From Syntrophus gentianae (lineage in GTDB: Bacteria; Desulfobacterota; Syntrophia; Syntrophales; Syntrophaceae), in assembly GCF_900109885.1 (NCBI RefSeq), contig NZ_FOBS01000017.1:1-64000 (forward strand): 64,000 nt of DNA, read 5' to 3'. Position 1 is the first letter of the stretch. Each line of letters starts with the position of its first letter. Of this stretch, positions 30,781 to 53,818 are shown one piece after another. The notes below the pieces were generated by a model. The model saw nothing but the letters and a program-made list of their open reading frames with translations. It had not been told where the DNA came from and ran no database searches. The position numbers and the translations under genes are program-made.

Positions 30781-30878
30781 GGAAGTGCCAAGGTCACTGG
30801 TGGGCCTCCCGGACTTCAAATCCGGTGTGGGGCGCTAAAACCGTCCCAGGTGGGTTCGATTCCCATGCACTTCCGCCA
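30781..30878 (+). tRNA. selC: tRNA-Sec (anticodon TCA)
   Basis: The 98-base gene including encoded CCA shows all selenocysteine tRNA features: an 8-bp acceptor stem (30781-30788 with 30867-30874), discriminator G at 30875, CCA at 30876-30878, an anticodon loop CTTCAAA with anticodon TCA, and a long variable arm (TGGGGCG ... CGTCCCA). The T-stem is 5 bp with loop TTCGATT, giving the bacterial 8+5 arrangement. It decodes UGA as selenocysteine when a SECIS element is present. selA, selB and selD are not in the window. An AT-rich accessory region begins right after the CCA. Confidence 0.96.
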
Positions 30879-45718: not shown

Positions 45719-45925
45719 TTATCCCCAACAATCTTCCTCGCGTGTACCGTAGGCAATCCAGGAAGAATCTTTCGGAGGGAAAGGCGAATCGGGATATCTG
45801 ACCGCGTATTCCTTTTGCGCCTTTACCACCGCTTCCTTTTCGTTCTGCGCATAGACAACCAGGTGGAACAGTTCTCTTCTTTCTCCGGACTCAGACAGGC
45901 CGAGAAGCTCGACTTTGTAGCGCAT
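45719..45925 (-). CDS. Small unknown protein, last gene of the primase-helicase operon
   Basis: A 68-residue protein with MRYKVELLGLSESGERREL at the start, the look of a small alpha/beta domain (EAVVKAQKEY helix) and a C-terminal EEDCWG. I do not recognise a family. It follows the coiled-coil protein by 15 bases on the same strand. Although short, it has a good start (ATG 45925 after GAAGGGTC) and codon use like its neighbours. It ends opposite the end of the PAS regulator gene. Confidence 0.6.
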   Translation of the reverse strand: MRYKVELLGLSESGERRELFHLVVYAQNEKEAVVKAQKEYAVRYPDSPFPPKDSSWIAYGTREEDCWG

Positions 45926-45940
45926 GGCGGATATGACCCT

Positions 45941-46183
45941 TCAGGAATTGCTGTTGCCGGTGCTTTCGCTGTCTTCCTTACGGTCTTCTGCTCTTTCGAG
46001 GTCCTTTATCTGCGTTTCAAGAACTTTATTTTCGGCAACGCGCAGAGAGAGCTTATTTTTGAGCGTCGCGTTCTCCCGGATGAGAACAGCCATCTGATCC
46101 TTGACAAAAGTAACCTGATCCATCAATTCGGCTGGCGCTTCATGTTCTTTAAGGAAGTCTGCTATTTTGTCAAAGATTGTCAT
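45941..46183 (-). CDS. Small coiled-coil protein
   Basis: An 80-residue, strongly charged protein. Residues 20-65 form a heptad-patterned coiled coil (VLIRENATLKNKLSLRVAEN), and the tail is low complexity and acidic/Ser-rich (DSESTGNSNS). It starts at ATG 46183 after AAGGTGA. It lies between two other small genes on the same strand and is likely translated with them. Function unknown. Confidence 0.6.
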   Translation of the reverse strand: MTIFDKIADFLKEHEAPAELMDQVTFVKDQMAVLIRENATLKNKLSLRVAENKVLETQIKDLERAEDRKEDSESTGNSNS

Positions 46184-46205
46184 GAGTCACCTTTACGTTT
46201 CTCAA

Positions 46206-46457
46206 TTAATGACATTCCTCAGAAAATCCCGAAAAATCCGTCTGCAATTCTGCAAGCAGGGCAACGACCTGTTGCCGTTCGGATTCAAGAAGATTAAGGG
46301 CTTTTCGACGGTCTTCGATGTTGATTGGCGTATTGGCCACTTCTTCTGCGCTGGCGCCCTCTGATTCCATCTGTTTTTGTCGGGCGTGTCTCATGGCCTG
46401 CGCAATTTCCATGACGATTTCAGTGAAGATATATTCATTAAGGAGTTCTGTTTTCAT
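46206..46457 (-). CDS. Small helical protein downstream of the primase-helicase
   Basis: From ATG 46457 (after GGAAAGGTG) the protein has 83 residues, all predicted helix: NEYIFTEIVMEIAQAMRHAR, then INIEDRRKALNLLESERQQV, and ends GFSEECH. The frame is open to 46589, but those codons lie in the intergenic and helicase stop region, so I use the internal ATG. It is 128 bases downstream of the helicase gene. Not a family I know. Confidence 0.6.
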   Translation of the reverse strand: MKTELLNEYIFTEIVMEIAQAMRHARQKQMESEGASAEEVANTPINIEDRRKALNLLESERQQVVALLAELQTDFSGFSEECH

Positions 46458-46585
46458 AAAGGCACCTTTCCATGAATTATTTTTCCTGTCATTATCACAG
46501 GTTCCCAATGGAAACAAGAAAACGCTTGGATAATTTGACAATGAACTTGAAGATAAAAAAGGAATTGTTCTTGTGACTATTTGGC

Positions 46586-49495
46586 TCATTTCTGTATGCT
46601 TCCGAGCAGCTCGTCGGCGATGCTCGCGTTTTCGAGCCTCATGATGCTTTCTTCCGCTCGGCCGAAACCCAACAGGTTGATGCTTCCATACCAGACAATT
46701 TTCTGATCGAAGATTGCAAATTTTTGGTGGATGTTGGATCTGAATATCAGCCGGACACCTGCGTCAGCAAGTAATGCCAGGGTTTCCTTCAAGGCAGCCT
46801 GGTCCTTTTCCTTGAAGTCGGATGTCGGCCTTGTGACGACAACCGTCTTGACTTGACGGTCCAGGGCGGCACTCATGAAAGGCAGCATCTGAGTCACCCG
46901 TCTCCTTGTGACGAAGGGGCTGACGATGAGAATTTCCTGCGCTGCGTTCAGCAGATCGTTTCTATATACCGGCAGGAAGGTTGCGCTGTCGAAGATGATA
47001 TCCGCCCCTTCATCGGGAACGCTTTGCGCCCTTGCTTTGTATCCAATCGAGGCGTATCCGGCCAGCCGCTTGTGATACATCCTTTCCAGCACCGGAACAT
47101 GAATATCGATATAATCGTAGATTATTACCTCCCGCTTGTTCTCGCAGAGGCGGTGGAGCCTTCCAGCATATTGCTGAAGCGTTCCCTTCCAGGAGATGGG
47201 CATGGCGAGAAACAGCGTATCCAGACGAGGCTCGTCGAACCCCTCGCCAATGTATCTCCCGGTTGCAATCAGCGTCAATGGCTTGCCGGCAGGCGTTTCG
47301 GAAATGCGAGCCAAGGCCTCCCGCGTCTCCTTTGCCCCCTTCCCGCCGGTCAGGGAAATGACATCGGGAATGTTCTCCCGCAGCTTCGCGGCCAGCAGAG
47401 TCACATGGGCCGTTCTTTCGGTGAGGACCAGGGCGTTGCCGCCTTTTTGAAAGCAACGCAGGACATCATCGGCAATCCGCTGATTCCTTGGCTCATTACC
47501 GGCGATGGCAGCATAGAGTTGTTGGATCGAAGGTTCTTTCCCTTCCGTATCCAGCGGTGCCTTGAAATCTGTCAACCGGGGGATGACATAATGATCGAAG
47601 GGCCTCTTTTCCGCCTGCTTCCTGGCATCCACCCGGTAACGGATCGGGCCGCAATGCATGAAAATAATGGGGTGGTGGCCATCTTGCCGTGTGGGGGTGG
47701 CCGTCAAACCGTAAACATATTTAGCATGAACACCTTTGAGGATCTGTTCAAAGCTGAATGCCGGCACATGATGGCATTCATCGACGATGACCATGCCATA
47801 ATGCCTGATTTCCTCCCTGATTTCGTCACTTCTGTTTAAGGACTGCATGATCGCGACGTCGATGAGGCCGCTCGGAGTGGACTTTCCCGCGCCGATCTGA
47901 CCAATCAGGCTTTGCTTTCTTTTACGTCCTCTCCCCTTCTCCAAGGCAGGCAGCGCTTCATCGATATGCAAAAACTCGTTTAGTTTTGCTGTCCATTGGG
48001 AGAGCAATTGTCTCCGGTGTGTCAGGATCAGTGTGCTCGTCTTCCTCTCGGCGATCAGTTTTGCGGCGATGACCGTTTTACCGAAAGCCGTGGTTGCCGA
48101 AAGAACGCCGGTATCATGTTGCAGCATCTCTTCCGCAGCGGGAAACTGTTCATCTCTCAGGTTTCCTTTGAAAATAACGTGGATGGGCTTCCCCGGACAG
48201 GTATGATCCAGCCGTTCAACCTTGACGCCTGATTGATTGAGCAGGGCGGCAACGTCGGTTTCACATCCTCTGGGGAGACAAATGTATTCAGGTGTTTCTT
48301 CCGAGCAGGAGATGATGCGCGGTTTGTCATAAGTCAGCAGCCGCAATGCCTGGGCCTTGTAAAATTCCGGATTTCTGAAGGCTGCCAGTCTCTTGATCGC
48401 GTTCAATCCCCGCTGAGAAATCCCTACTTTTTCGATGTAAAGCATGTTTGCCTTGACCAACCGGACAGCTTGGGGAAAGTCATTCCCGGATACATCTCTT
48501 CGCACGGATTCCCAAGGTCTTACGGTTTCTTCATCGTCTTTACGAAGCGATCCCAACTCGTTTCCAGGGCTCAACTGTGGTATCCATCTGGTGATCTCCT
48601 CCTCGGACAATCGGCCGATGCCGGCCAGGAACTCCCACTGATTTTCATAAGGGCGGAAGTTCTCGTCGACGAAAACACTGTTACCTTTTTCCCGGGCCTT
48701 CTTCTGGAGGGGAAGGGCGATCAGGTTTCCAAAACCGCCCTTCGGGAGGGTATCCTGATTGGGAAAGAAGCGGTCGTAGGATTTGAAGGTCAGTTCATGC
48801 CTCCGGTTCATGGCACCGGTCAGCAGGGCGGAACCAAACTTCCGCGCCAGGCTTGCAGGAATGGAATGCTCAAAGAAAAACCAGGCATGGGCTCCGTTTC
48901 CGGAACGGGATCGTTCCAGGGCCATGGGGATTTCAAAAGTGGCGCAGACCGCCCGAAGCGTCGCGCAGTCATCTTGCCAGCCTTCATCATCAAAATCAAT
49001 AGCCAGAAGATGGCATGTCTCGTCCAAACAGAGTGGATAGAGGCCGGCAACGATCTGGCCCCGCAGATGCGATTCAATGACCTTTTCGTCCAAGGCTTCG
49101 TAGGATGAATGGCTGCAGTCGGCGCATTTCCCTGCCGGTTTCAGGCAGAGGCCGGATTTCCATTCATTGAGGCAAACCGGTGCATAACCCGACCTGTCCG
49201 TCTTGCTCTGCCATCTTCTGGCATAAACATCCTTTCGCCCTTGAAAGAGGGACATGAAAAGCCGGATTTTTTCGTCCGAATCGGGTTGCCTTGGCGCTCC
49301 CGATCTCGCATGACCCCCTGTTGATTGCTGGGCCGTTAAAACCGAGGGCGAAGAATTTTCAGAATCCTGATGCGTATCCGGTTGAGGGGGCCTTGCAATC
49401 CCAAGCTGCGCCTTCAGGAATTCGTTTTCTTTCCGCAAGAAACGGTTTTCAGCAAGCAGTGCCCGGTATTTTTCGAACAACTCATCAACATTCAC
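46586..49495 (-). CDS. Primase-SF2 helicase-phospholipase D fusion (TOTE conflict-system type)
   Basis: A 969-residue multidomain protein. Residues 1-35 are a coiled coil. About 80-330 form an archaeo-eukaryotic primase-like domain with a Cys4 motif (Cys108, 117, 124, 127), a DFDD acidic motif at 167-170 and SGNGAHAWF at 198-206. About 450-830 form a superfamily 2 helicase (TTAFGKTVIAAKLIAE, DECHH, GLTATPTRQD, QQYAGRLHR). The C-terminus is a PLD-type nuclease with one HKD-like motif (HQKFAIFDQKIVWYGSINL). The domain series matches the helicases of TOTE-type conflict systems, thought to act against mobile DNA. The Fic gene ends 33 bases upstream. Confidence 0.85.
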   Translation of the reverse strand: MNVDELFEKYRALLAENRFLRKENEFLKAQLGIARPPQPDTHQDSENSSPSVLTAQQSTGGHARSGAPRQPDSDEKIRLFMSLFQGRKDVYARRWQSKTDRSGYAPVCLNEWKSGLCLKPAGKCADCSHSSYEALDEKVIESHLRGQIVAGLYPLCLDETCHLLAIDFDDEGWQDDCATLRAVCATFEIPMALERSRSGNGAHAWFFFEHSIPASLARKFGSALLTGAMNRRHELTFKSYDRFFPNQDTLPKGGFGNLIALPLQKKAREKGNSVFVDENFRPYENQWEFLAGIGRLSEEEITRWIPQLSPGNELGSLRKDDEETVRPWESVRRDVSGNDFPQAVRLVKANMLYIEKVGISQRGLNAIKRLAAFRNPEFYKAQALRLLTYDKPRIISCSEETPEYICLPRGCETDVAALLNQSGVKVERLDHTCPGKPIHVIFKGNLRDEQFPAAEEMLQHDTGVLSATTAFGKTVIAAKLIAERKTSTLILTHRRQLLSQWTAKLNEFLHIDEALPALEKGRGRKRKQSLIGQIGAGKSTPSGLIDVAIMQSLNRSDEIREEIRHYGMVIVDECHHVPAFSFEQILKGVHAKYVYGLTATPTRQDGHHPIIFMHCGPIRYRVDARKQAEKRPFDHYVIPRLTDFKAPLDTEGKEPSIQQLYAAIAGNEPRNQRIADDVLRCFQKGGNALVLTERTAHVTLLAAKLRENIPDVISLTGGKGAKETREALARISETPAGKPLTLIATGRYIGEGFDEPRLDTLFLAMPISWKGTLQQYAGRLHRLCENKREVIIYDYIDIHVPVLERMYHKRLAGYASIGYKARAQSVPDEGADIIFDSATFLPVYRNDLLNAAQEILIVSPFVTRRRVTQMLPFMSAALDRQVKTVVVTRPTSDFKEKDQAALKETLALLADAGVRLIFRSNIHQKFAIFDQKIVWYGSINLLGFGRAEESIMRLENASIADELLGSIQK

Positions 49496-49528
49496 AATGG
49501 CAGCCTTTTTATTTTTATTGGAATAATT

Positions 49529-50743
49529 TCATCTTATTCGCGAGGGATAGAGATCGGGGAAGAACCATCCCGCGGCGTGAATTGGAAGACCCAGACGGAC
49601 ATCGCCTTTCGGTGTGTCCGAAACAAGCAATCCTTCCTCGATCAGTTGTCCCAGGAGGCTTCTTCCTGTCCTTTCTTTCAAACCTGATGCTGCGATGACT
49701 GATCCCCGGGCTGCTTTGCCCTTCAGCAGAACCTCCTGGAGCATTCGGGCCGATTCAATTCTCAGCTTTTTCCCTTCTGATGGTCCATCGATCAGCCCGG
49801 AGTTGCGGAGTTCTACATATCGCCTGATGCGCTCAACGAGTTCTTCCAGCCGAAGCAGGCTTCCCATGTACTCGACCTGATCGAGACAGACATCCAGAAA
49901 GAAGCGGCAAAAATGCACCAGTCCTTCATTGGAAAGGTTTCCCCTGCCGTCTAGATCGTTGCGACGGGGTAAATCGGCTAAGGCTAAGGCAGACTTATAA
50001 TCGATATTTCTGCAGGCCAGCCCCCGGCTCACCGACCAGAGTCCGAAACCATGAAGTGGAATCCGATGAAAGTAGGCTTCGGTAAAAAGGCGTGCCACTC
50101 GACCGTTACCGTCAAGAAAAGGGTGTATCCACATCAGTCGGTGATGGGCCGCTGCGGCGGCAACAAGCTTCAGTGCGCCATGATGTCTGTCCGGCGCATA
50201 AAATTCACCGAAACGATGGAGAAACGCTTTGAGCGAGCCATGTTCCGGCGGGTGGTGATAGCCCACCTTAACAGACTCTACGCGGAGCTCTCCTGGGATG
50301 ACGGTGCTTTGTTGGCCTGTCTCCGGATTCGTGACAATTCGGAATTCTTCCGGCAGTTGCCGGTAGAACTCACGGTGGATGGTGCAGAGAAATTCCTGAT
50401 GAGTAATGTTGACGTCCGACTCTTGCCGTAGTTTTTTTTCTAGCTCCTTCTGGACGGTAATATGGGTAATGCTCTCCAGTTGAAGATTGCGCTTGGCCGA
50501 TTCTGAATCGTACTCTTGCTGCATGGCACGGACAATGTCATGGGGATGGGTGTTATGCCCCTCGATTAGATTGGAATAATAGCTGTTAATAATCCTAAGC
50601 AGATCCCGAAGTGCATCGAGCGTTACAGGGTGCTGTCTGCTTCCGAGGGCGGCGGATTTTTGGATAACCTCCAGAGCATAGTCTTGAAGTTCATCCGCCC
50701 CTTCCGGCAAGAGCGGCGTCATCAGGTGAATTTGAGAGATCAT
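49529..50743 (-). CDS. Fic-family protein adenylyltransferase with its own inhibitory motif
   Basis: The 404-residue protein has the full Fic motif HPFLDGNGRVAR (residues 207-218), with the catalytic His and phosphate-binding Asn and Arg. It also has the class II N-terminal inhibitory helix SNLIEG (57-62), whose Glu blocks ATP until released, so no separate antitoxin is needed. The last 80 residues resemble a winged helix (LKERTGRSLLGQLIEEGLL). Fic enzymes mostly add AMP to target hydroxyls. It starts the minus-strand run with the primase-helicase gene, 33 bases away. Confidence 0.93.
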   Translation of the reverse strand: MISQIHLMTPLLPEGADELQDYALEVIQKSAALGSRQHPVTLDALRDLLRIINSYYSNLIEGHNTHPHDIVRAMQQEYDSESAKRNLQLESITHITVQKELEKKLRQESDVNITHQEFLCTIHREFYRQLPEEFRIVTNPETGQQSTVIPGELRVESVKVGYHHPPEHGSLKAFLHRFGEFYAPDRHHGALKLVAAAAAHHRLMWIHPFLDGNGRVARLFTEAYFHRIPLHGFGLWSVSRGLACRNIDYKSALALADLPRRNDLDGRGNLSNEGLVHFCRFFLDVCLDQVEYMGSLLRLEELVERIRRYVELRNSGLIDGPSEGKKLRIESARMLQEVLLKGKAARGSVIAASGLKERTGRSLLGQLIEEGLLVSDTPKGDVRLGLPIHAAGWFFPDLYPSRIR

Positions 50744-51033
50744 CTATATCTCCAGTTGCCGATTATTATGCCGTTAAAAATATTTAAAATTAATAATAAT
50801 TACAATTAAAAATTGAAGTGATTCCAATTTAAATGTATTGTATTTTGCCGATATATTGAATAGCTTTATTGGTGATCGAACTATAATCTGGATTCGGTTG
50901 TCATTACCAAGCAAATAATGATCTTGTTTCAAATATCTGTTTTCGGTGTATAGACAAATTAAAATACTGTAAAACAAATCCCAAATTGATATTATTAACA
51001 GAAAATCGGCAATTAGGAGGTGTGTTAGATATT
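50744..51033. other. AT-rich divergent intergenic region
   Basis: Very AT-rich 290 bases between the Fic gene (minus) and the Pro-repeat membrane protein (plus). It must hold promoters for both. I see no hairpin or repeat worth naming. Confidence 0.4.
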
Positions 51034-51762
51034 ATGCATCCTATCGGCTATATTATTATGGCTTTTGGGGCGTTCCTATCTGTAACTGGCATAATTCTAC
51101 TTTCTAGGAAAGGTTCTCAGGGCAAGAGCGTCGTCAAAATGTTTGGTTTTGAATTCGAATTGTCAGAATCTTCACTGGTTATATTTGTTTTCGGTTGTTT
51201 AATTTTTCTTACTCCGCTAATTTTAGTTGATAAACTTCCACCGAAGATCGTGGTGAATCCTGTGAAGGCTCCTCCAGTGCAAATACAGAAGCCCGCTCTA
51301 CCTCCAGAACCCCAAACAAACAGAGAAGCAAAGCTTCCAACAATGAAAATTAAGGCTCCTCCAGTGCAAATACAGAAGCCCGCTCTACCTCCAGAACCCC
51401 AAACAAACAGAGACGTAAAGCTTCCAACAATGAAAATTAAGGCTCCTCCAGTGCAAATACAGAAGCCTGCTTTACCTCCAGAACCTCAAACAATGTCAAT
51501 TAAGGAACTTTGTAAGAACTGGAATGGAATAGGTCCACCACCAAATCTATTTTGTTACGGGAAACGGTTTCTACCCGGTGTGGGAGTTGCACCCGAAGGA
51601 TATACATGGTGCATTTTAGATAAAAAGTTCAACAATCCTCCGAACGTCCAGGGTTACTGCTTTTCGAAGGAAGAGTCGGGACTGTGCCATTGCGCGAAGG
51701 TACCACCCGGTTTCCCTCAACCCTCAATGGAGTGGTTTGGTCAGGTTTACGAAGGCAAATGA
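51034..51762 (+). CDS. Membrane protein with a tandem 29-residue proline-rich repeat
   Basis: From ATG 51034 the protein has 242 residues. Two membrane helices (about 6-24 and 45-66) are followed by a Pro/Lys-rich region made of two full and one partial 29-residue repeats containing APPVQIQKPALPPEPQT. The C-terminal 80 residues are Cys-rich (LFCYGKRFL, YTWCILDK, GYCFSKEESGLCHC) and probably extracytoplasmic and disulfide-bonded. AGGAGG lies 12 bases before the ATG; a GTG at about 51022 would be the alternative. Not a family I know. It is followed by two other envelope-type genes. Confidence 0.65.
   Translation: MHPIGYIIMAFGAFLSVTGIILLSRKGSQGKSVVKMFGFEFELSESSLVIFVFGCLIFLTPLILVDKLPPKIVVNPVKAPPVQIQKPALPPEPQTNREAKLPTMKIKAPPVQIQKPALPPEPQTNRDVKLPTMKIKAPPVQIQKPALPPEPQTMSIKELCKNWNGIGPPPNLFCYGKRFLPGVGVAPEGYTWCILDKKFNNPPNVQGYCFSKEESGLCHCAKVPPGFPQPSMEWFGQVYEGK
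51265..51495 (+). repeat. 87-bp tandem repeat within the Pro-rich gene
   Basis: Copies start at 51265, 51352 and 51439 (the last is partial, to about 51495). They are nearly identical at the DNA level, which points to recent expansion by slippage or unequal exchange. 87 bp keeps the frame. Confidence 0.9.
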
Positions 51763-51995: not shown

Positions 51996-52322
51996 ATGAA
52001 TTGGAGTGAAGTAATTACTCATCCTCTTGGACTTGTCGCGTATGTCTTGGCTCTTGTTTTCGGCGTGGTAGGGGCTAAACTAGGGGCTAGGAATAAGCCT
52101 TGGTTTTTGCCTGTTGCTATTGCAATATCCGCACTTGTTATTTTAGCAGGAATTTATCTAGCATATCAGAATGTTAAATTGAAAACAATATCTGTTACCC
52201 CCAAACCTCCGGTAGAACATAAAGAAGTTATTCAGGAAACGCATGGTGTTCAAAGCCCTGCTGTTCATGGAACGGATGGTAATGTAACCATAATCAATAA
52301 TCCACGAGGGAAAGGGAATTGA
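51996..52322 (+). CDS. Small two-helix membrane protein
   Basis: A 108-residue protein with two hydrophobic helices (about 13-31 and 38-57) and a soluble tail ending QSPAVHGTDGNVTIINN. This tail motif, SPAVxGTxGNVTI, occurs in many unrelated small bacterial proteins and may form a short beta-helix turn. ATG 51996 follows AAGGTGATA. Its stop overlaps the next gene (TTGA at 52319), so it is translated together with the TPR protein, which carries a similar motif after its signal peptide. Confidence 0.6.
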   Translation: MNWSEVITHPLGLVAYVLALVFGVVGAKLGARNKPWFLPVAIAISALVILAGIYLAYQNVKLKTISVTPKPPVEHKEVIQETHGVQSPAVHGTDGNVTIINNPRGKGN

Positions 52323-53818
52323 TCTATATTATTAGTATAATATTCATGCTTTTATCTGCTAATGCGAGTGCTGAGGAAATTAGACAGACAACAACCGGAT
52401 GGTGCAGCCCTACTGTGGCCGATGTGAAAGGAAATGTTAAGATCACTTGCACTGGTGTCGATCCAAGAGCAATGAAACGACTAAATGAGTTGCTGGACAT
52501 CAGGGATAAAGAATTAAAGGGCAAAGAGACGACCCTTAAAAGTAAGATTCAAGAGGCTGATGAATGGGCTCGTAAGTATCGTGAATTAAAAGAACGGTTT
52601 CCCAATGGAGATGAAGGAAATCAAATAGCACATCAAGCCAAAAAGCTTTTACAGGAGGGCAAGCTTGATGAAGCCGGCACAATACTAGACAAGGTAATTG
52701 ATTCTAGTGAAAAGCAGATTGATCAAATTGCCTCTCAGCACTTCAACCGGGCAGAGATATTCTCTCTGCAATTCAAACCAATGGAAGCCTGGTCCCATTA
52801 CGAAAAGGCATATCGATACCGGCCAGATAACTATAAATATACATTTGGTTATGCACGGTCTCTTCAAGAACAGAACATGAAAAGCGAGGCGGAAAAGAAA
52901 TATCTGGAAGCACTGGACATACTCCGTAAACTTGCCCTCAACAACCCATCATCAGATGATGAATTTTATGTGGCGAGAACCTTGCACAACTTGGCGATTC
53001 TCTACAAAGATACAAAACGCCATGGTGAGGCGGAAAAGGCATATCAGAAAGCTTTGGAAATACATCGTAAAAATGCACTTAACAACCCGGCAGCATATGG
53101 ACCTTATGTGGCGACGACCCTATGCAGCCTGGCGATTCTCTATAGCGACACCCAACGCTATGGTGCTGCGGAAAATGCATATCAGGACGCCATAGAGATA
53201 CTCCGCAAACAGATACCCAACAACCCGATGGCATATGAGCCTGATTATTATATTGAGATCACCATGAACAACCTAGTGAATCTCTACATCACTACCCAAC
53301 GCTATGATGCTGCGGAAAAGGCATCTCAGGAAGTCTTAGCCATACTCCTTAAATTGGCTCTCAACAATCCGGCGGCATATGAAGCTGATTTGTCGATAAC
53401 CCTGCACAACCTGGCGTATATCTACATTGTTACTCAACGCTATGGTGCTGCGGAAAAGGCATCTCAGGAAGCCTTAGCCATACTCCGTAAACTGGCCCTC
53501 AACAATCCGGCGGCATATGAACCTGATTTGGCGAAGACTCTGAACAACTTGGCGGTTCTCTATAGAGATACCCAACGCTTTAGTGTGGCGGAGAAAACAT
53601 TTCAGGAAGCCTTAGCCATACTCCGTAAACTGGCCCTCAACAATCCGGCGGCATATGAACCTTATATGGCAAAAACATTAGACAATCTGGCTATTCTCTA
53701 CAGAAATACCCAACGCCATGGTGAGGCGAAAAAGGCAATTCAGGAAGCACTAGACATTAAGCATAAACTGGACCCCAACAAACAGTCATCAATCGACTAT
53801 AAATTCATTAAATTCTAA
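52319..53818 (+). CDS. Exported TPR protein with kinesin-light-chain-type repeats
   Basis: A 499-residue protein starting with a probable signal peptide (IISIIFMLLSANASA), then CSPTVADVKGNVKITCTGVD, a coiled coil (about 60-95), and an array of TPRs of the kinesin-light-chain type from about residue 95. At least six copies with a 46-residue period are near-identical, such as ALAILRKLALNNPAAYEPDL. The start is a TTG (52319) overlapping the preceding stop. It is probably a periplasmic scaffold working with the preceding membrane protein. Recent duplication of repeats is clear from the DNA similarity. Confidence 0.75.
   Translation: MIYIISIIFMLLSANASAEEIRQTTTGWCSPTVADVKGNVKITCTGVDPRAMKRLNELLDIRDKELKGKETTLKSKIQEADEWARKYRELKERFPNGDEGNQIAHQAKKLLQEGKLDEAGTILDKVIDSSEKQIDQIASQHFNRAEIFSLQFKPMEAWSHYEKAYRYRPDNYKYTFGYARSLQEQNMKSEAEKKYLEALDILRKLALNNPSSDDEFYVARTLHNLAILYKDTKRHGEAEKAYQKALEIHRKNALNNPAAYGPYVATTLCSLAILYSDTQRYGAAENAYQDAIEILRKQIPNNPMAYEPDYYIEITMNNLVNLYITTQRYDAAEKASQEVLAILLKLALNNPAAYEADLSITLHNLAYIYIVTQRYGAAEKASQEALAILRKLALNNPAAYEPDLAKTLNNLAVLYRDTQRFSVAEKTFQEALAILRKLALNNPAAYEPYMAKTLDNLAILYRNTQRHGEAKKAIQEALDIKHKLDPNKQSSIDYKFIKF

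Follow-up and report, generated by a model that had tools for sequence, protein, structure and literature searches.

TOTE stands for TPR, OB, TBP and Effector (PMC12458937), and the conflict systems of that name are the source of the Pfam name AEP-TOTE. Sofic (or SoFic; PDB 3eqx and 7xux) is a single-gene anti-phage Fic protein that is reported to cause abortive infection by AMPylation (PMC12249575). An AEP domain is also part of CRISPR-associated Prim-Pol (CAPP), and AEP families have been tied to mobile elements (PMC5862659). Here we compare with these systems a locus in a 64,000-nucleotide stretch of Syntrophus gentianae DNA, called the window below. A sequence-only reading of it had proposed a defence operon of five genes, two of which, a Fic gene and a 969-residue fusion gene 33 bp apart, are present as described and have intact motifs:

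49529..50743, minus strand: Fic/DOC-family gene, 404 aa, intact; N-terminal inhibitory helix, Fic motif and C-terminal winged-helix-like domain
49496..49528, minus strand: Fic-fusion intergenic gap, 33 bp, from the Fic stop to the GTG of the fusion
46586..49495, minus strand: AEP primase-SF2 helicase-PLD fusion, 969 aa, GTG start, intact
48590..49273, minus strand: AEP primase domain, residues 75-302; motifs DFDD, GAH and YDRFFP
47096..48163, minus strand: SF2 helicase, XPB-like, residues about 445-800; motifs AFGKT and DECH
46607..46957, minus strand: PLD-family nuclease domain, residues 847-963; single HKD motif; PF13091, E 3.6e-10

The fusion matches the Pfam families AEP-TOTE (PF22548, 338 bits), ResIII/DEAD and PLDc_2, with a weak, sub-threshold match to Helicase_C. 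All of its catalytic motifs read intact: those listed for the primase and helicase, and HQKFAIFD...GSIN of PLDc_2. Its AEP domain carries conserved cysteines at positions 108, 117, 124 and 127. The AlphaFold2 model (pLDDT 83.7) displays a long N-terminal helix, the AEP domain and the XPB-like helicase. By Foldseek, the AEP domain resembles that of CAPP (TM by target 0.76-0.80), from which the window protein differs by its fusion to an SF2 helicase and a PLD domain.

The resemblance to TOTE that had been claimed holds for the effector, with its PF22548 primase, helicase and nuclease, and fails for the partners. A search of the whole genome found no TBP gene (PF00352), Pfam scans of the flanking proteins recognised no TPR-OB partner, and neither TPR-OB nor TBP families are among the 25 commonest Pfam families of the 77 upstream neighbours described below. 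The window does have a TPR gene (52319-53818), divergent from the pair and with a signal-peptide-like start; it matches TPR families only and has no OB fold, whereas the TPR-OB protein of TOTE is of the cold-shock/S1 type. Strict membership of TOTE is ruled out by the missing TBP gene and by the lack of a recognised TPR-OB partner. On the plus strand, the two divergent genes adjoining the pair contain tandem repeats, with 87-bp units in a proline-rich protein gene (51265-51493) and 138-bp units in the TPR gene (52888-53748). The window also holds a selenocysteine tRNA gene (30781-30878, plus strand).

The Fic protein contains an intact Fic motif, HPFLDGNGRVAR, with His207, and an intact N-terminal inhibitory helix with the class II motif SNLIEG. 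Taking class II to be defined by an N-terminal [ST]xxxEG inhibitory motif together with HxFx[DE]GNGRxxR, both of which it has, the protein is by its motifs a class II, predicted self-inhibited enzyme. It matches PF02661 (E 1.6e-13) and the PADLOC SoFic model (E 8.5e-25), and the nearest PDB folds to its AlphaFold2 model (pLDDT 88) are 7xux and SoFic 3eqx. It thus shares with SoFic the class II type, the inhibitory N-terminal helix and the C-terminal domain, and its predicted fold is similar. However, identity in the structural match is only about 20%, and the score against the NCBIfam SoFic equivalog NF046030 is 21.8 bits, versus a cut-off of 550. Moreover, directly downstream there is no AS1-like small antitoxin gene; instead, a large nucleic-acid enzyme is encoded 33 bp away. 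The window protein is therefore SoFic-like in fold and motifs and not a SoFic equivalog. In the open-access literature searched we found no paper pairing Fic with an AEP-helicase fusion, which is weak evidence of novelty.

The three small ORFs that follow the fusion on the same minus strand, also claimed as components, do not belong to the system. No homologue of any of them was found at any other fusion locus. In the class search, ORF 3 adjoins ORF 1 in a genome of the same genus (G074, 68% identity) and is also present in G073, again of the same genus, and in G006; none of these three genomes has an AEP-TOTE match. ORF 1 starts at about 46457 rather than at 46589, and the stretch homologous to G074 already starts before it, at 46518, within the spacer behind the fusion. 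Being absent from other fusion loci, with two of them occurring in fusion-less relatives, the small ORFs look like a separate neighbouring unit, and of the five-gene operon there remains the Fic-fusion pair. The region 45719-46457 (minus strand) is a genus-level cluster of small genes of unassigned function.

The sequence-only reading had staked its proposal on the pair recurring elsewhere, and co-occurrence turned out to be strong. Our class sample comprised 155 genomes, with named relatives from Syntrophaceae, Syntrophus, Smithella and other Deltaproteobacteria (Desulfobacterota). Six other genomes in it (G080, G017, G147, G129, G133 and G026) carry the window-type pair in the same order and orientation; by segment identities, Fic is 77-84% and the fusion mostly 76-82% identical to the window. 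Fic is frameshifted next to an intact fusion in G129, and the reverse holds in G026. Two more loci (G135 contig 145 and G124) retain only remnants of the fusion. Across 145 deduplicated loci there are 15 Fic matches in the 135.7 kb within 500 bp of the fusion (0.11 per kb) and 2 in the 932 kb at 2-8 kb, so that Fic is about 50 times denser at less than 500 bp than beyond 2 kb. The pairing is real and far above chance, a conclusion that is well supported. Two loci bear decay scars: in L039 (8420-8608) an internal deletion removed most of residues 34-937 of the fusion and left both ends, and in L038 (7422-8330) Fic residue 140 is joined to fusion residue 809, again with both ends left.

Other Fic proteins pair with the fusion too. 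In surroundings unrelated to those of the window, they occur divergently (G037, G033 and L139), downstream (G118, G449 and G430), upstream (G109 and G473) and on a viral contig (L353). On a tree of 128 fusions, the label "Fic within 1 kb" changes at least seven times on starred branches. The adjacent Fics fall into at least four subfamilies, including the window's own; a second is found, in three arrangements, next to fusions that have PLD as well as next to fusions that lack it, G109, G473 and G168 share a third, and the rest are singletons. G118, which sits inside the window's fusion clade, is devoid of the window-type Fic and has two other Fics flanking the fusion. Judging by these sequences, the association has arisen several times, from several Fic subfamilies. 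Among 75 distinct loci of the named set, mostly from Bacillota, Bacteroidota and others, a single one has a Fic within 1 kb (L139, from Desulfobacterota).

Each gene also occurs alone, which counts against a cassette: five genomes (G128, G137, G004, G122 and G149) have a Fic of the window subfamily and no fusion, and the fusion occurs without Fic in G001, G043 and G058 and in almost every other phylum of the sample. On the plasmids, where few fusion and Fic loci were read, the two are unlinked. Since each is found alone, and either can be frameshifted with the other intact, Fic and fusion are not strictly interdependent. Fusion-less window-type Fics adjoin tRNA-Glu genes or tRNA-Glu-like 3' ends in L124, L126 and L122, which hints at island insertion; L124 has a second, shorter copy.

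We sampled 77 upstream neighbours within 400 bp of fusion genes. Pfam assigned DUF4143/AAA_14 to 10 of them, Fic to 10, AbiEii to 5 and HATPase_c_4 to 5, and, more rarely, YhcG, GmrSD and PIN (2 each). The corresponding PADLOC matches were PDC-S01 (10), SoFic (10), AbiEii (5) and PDC-S24 (5). Control genes 2.5-7 kb from the fusion, which are random flank genes and not matched defence islands, gave scattered, mostly metabolic Pfam families and scattered single or double PADLOC matches. The defence-like context that had been suggested is thus borne out, the upstream neighbours being toxin-like. In other lineages, DUF4143/AAA_14 ATPases and AbiEii genes lie 14-60 bp upstream of the fusion, as Fic does here. 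Because such modules (DUF4143 ATPase, Fic, AbiEii, AlbA-like) alternate upstream of fusions, a defence role is supported; shared island residence may nevertheless be the cause of the association.

Joint expression of the pair, as proposed, is probable. No terminator- or promoter-like site was found in the 33-bp gap, and other Fic-fusion pairs have a comparably short one. Upstream of Fic we found a new element, paired direct repeats of ATCGGCA whose period is 12 bp, located near -34 and -122 relative to the Fic start. The pairs bracket a stretch resembling TTGCAT...TATAAT, read by eye as a promoter:

50757..50775, minus strand: proximal operator-like repeat pair, AACGGCATAATAATCGGCA, beside the Fic ribosome-binding site; aligned with 8 relatives
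50846..50852, minus strand: distal operator-like half, ATCGGCA; its second copy is eroded in the window genome

The proximal pair has one mismatch and is the sole match this good in the 64-kb window. The pattern ATCGGC-N5-7-ATCGGC has 26 unique occurrences in 3.4 Mb of DNA, a sample enriched for Fic loci by design, and about 22 of the 26 are placed shortly before a Fic gene or right at its beginning; a single mononucleotide-shuffled control contained 1 occurrence. These Fic genes include some of about 40% identity on viral contigs, and repeat pairs precede distant Fic relatives that have no fusion. Paired repeats before Fic were seen at L038, L039, L072, L272, L275 and L279. The repeat-bearing loci have no known gene in common except Fic, which makes autoregulation through its C-terminal winged-helix-like domain the simplest reading. 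Conservation in distant relatives argues likewise that the pairs are a putative Fic operator, and that Fic probably regulates its own promoter together with the fusion behind it. Class-wide, the strict 14-base pair also turns up roughly once in each genome, apparently inside coding sequence. This counts against the cassette reading, and because of it the pair is not diagnostic by itself; the exact pair, being too unspecific, was rejected for marking the system across whole genomes. An ORF at 50774-50977, upstream of Fic, was considered as an antitoxin gene and discarded: it overlaps the operator region, and no conserved counterpart was seen in the sequences upstream of Fic in relatives.

The pair recurs in many related bacteria, and one Fic family can stand in for another; this argues for a probable anti-phage cassette. 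We tentatively favour, at somewhat less than an even chance, a two-gene cassette against phages or mobile elements, in which Fic is an autorepressor, the fusion the direct effector and AMPylation by Fic an abortive back-up. Fic would bind the ATCGGCA repeats and repress its own promoter, which would also drive the fusion. Upon infection, Fic would leave the operator, or its inhibitory helix would be released, or both. The fusion would then unwind, prime and nick the invading DNA, and Fic would add a second, abortive layer by AMPylating a host target and so halting growth, in the manner reported for Sofic. We infer the defence function from the composition and context of the genes.

A serious rival, possible though doubtful, is that a stand-alone defence fusion has repeatedly come to lie just behind single-gene modules of toxin type (Fic, DUF4143, AbiE or AlbA-like) and borrows their promoter, with no biochemical link to Fic. 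Several unrelated partners do lie upstream of the fusion at 8-60 bp, solo copies of both genes are many, one partner is pseudogenised in G129 and G026, and the distance matrices of Fic and fusion agree only weakly over the seven pairs (r 0.42, p 0.11). However, the enrichment of Fic beside the fusion is lineage-specific and repeated, the Fic family has been swapped for others within one fusion clade (G118), and where Fic is divergent or downstream there is no promoter to borrow.

Improbable, to our mind, is the mechanism first suggested, in which foreign DNA, once sensed by the primase-helicase, triggers the release of Fic, which AMPylates a host target as an abortive effector. The full catalytic motif and inhibitory helix kept in Fic would suit it, as would the abortive AMPylation by Sofic (PMC12249575); against this, the fusion has an intact nuclease motif of its own and stands alone in most genomes, and Fic stands alone in several. 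Very improbable is a replication or maintenance module of an integrated element, with the primase-helicase replicating the element and Fic as its addiction toxin: AEP-helicase proteins frequently work in the replication of mobile elements (PMC5862659) and PLD-less homologues on plasmids have integrases, transposases or a TniQ gene as neighbours, but the genes that recurrently adjoin the fusion include no integrase or relaxase families, and the nuclease domain and the DUF4143, AbiE and Fic context fit defence better.

Returning to the cassette, a wider and rather unlikely extension would make it one version of a modular defence family, in which a primase-helicase, with or without the nuclease, takes as its partner one of several toxin-like regulators that can replace each other (Fic, DUF4143 ATPase, AbiE or AlbA-like). 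In the Fic version, the Fic-bound ATCGGCA operator would act as an infection sensor switching both genes on.

The fusion family thus sits, in many loci, behind an exchangeable toxin-like gene, a place that Fic often takes in Desulfobacterota. AEP-helicase-PLD proteins are an unassigned family with a wide distribution, occurring in a number of phyla and in one archaeal MAG; their recurrent toxin-type partner genes give the family a testable context, and, thanks to the operator motif, the proposed regulation can be tested at little cost.
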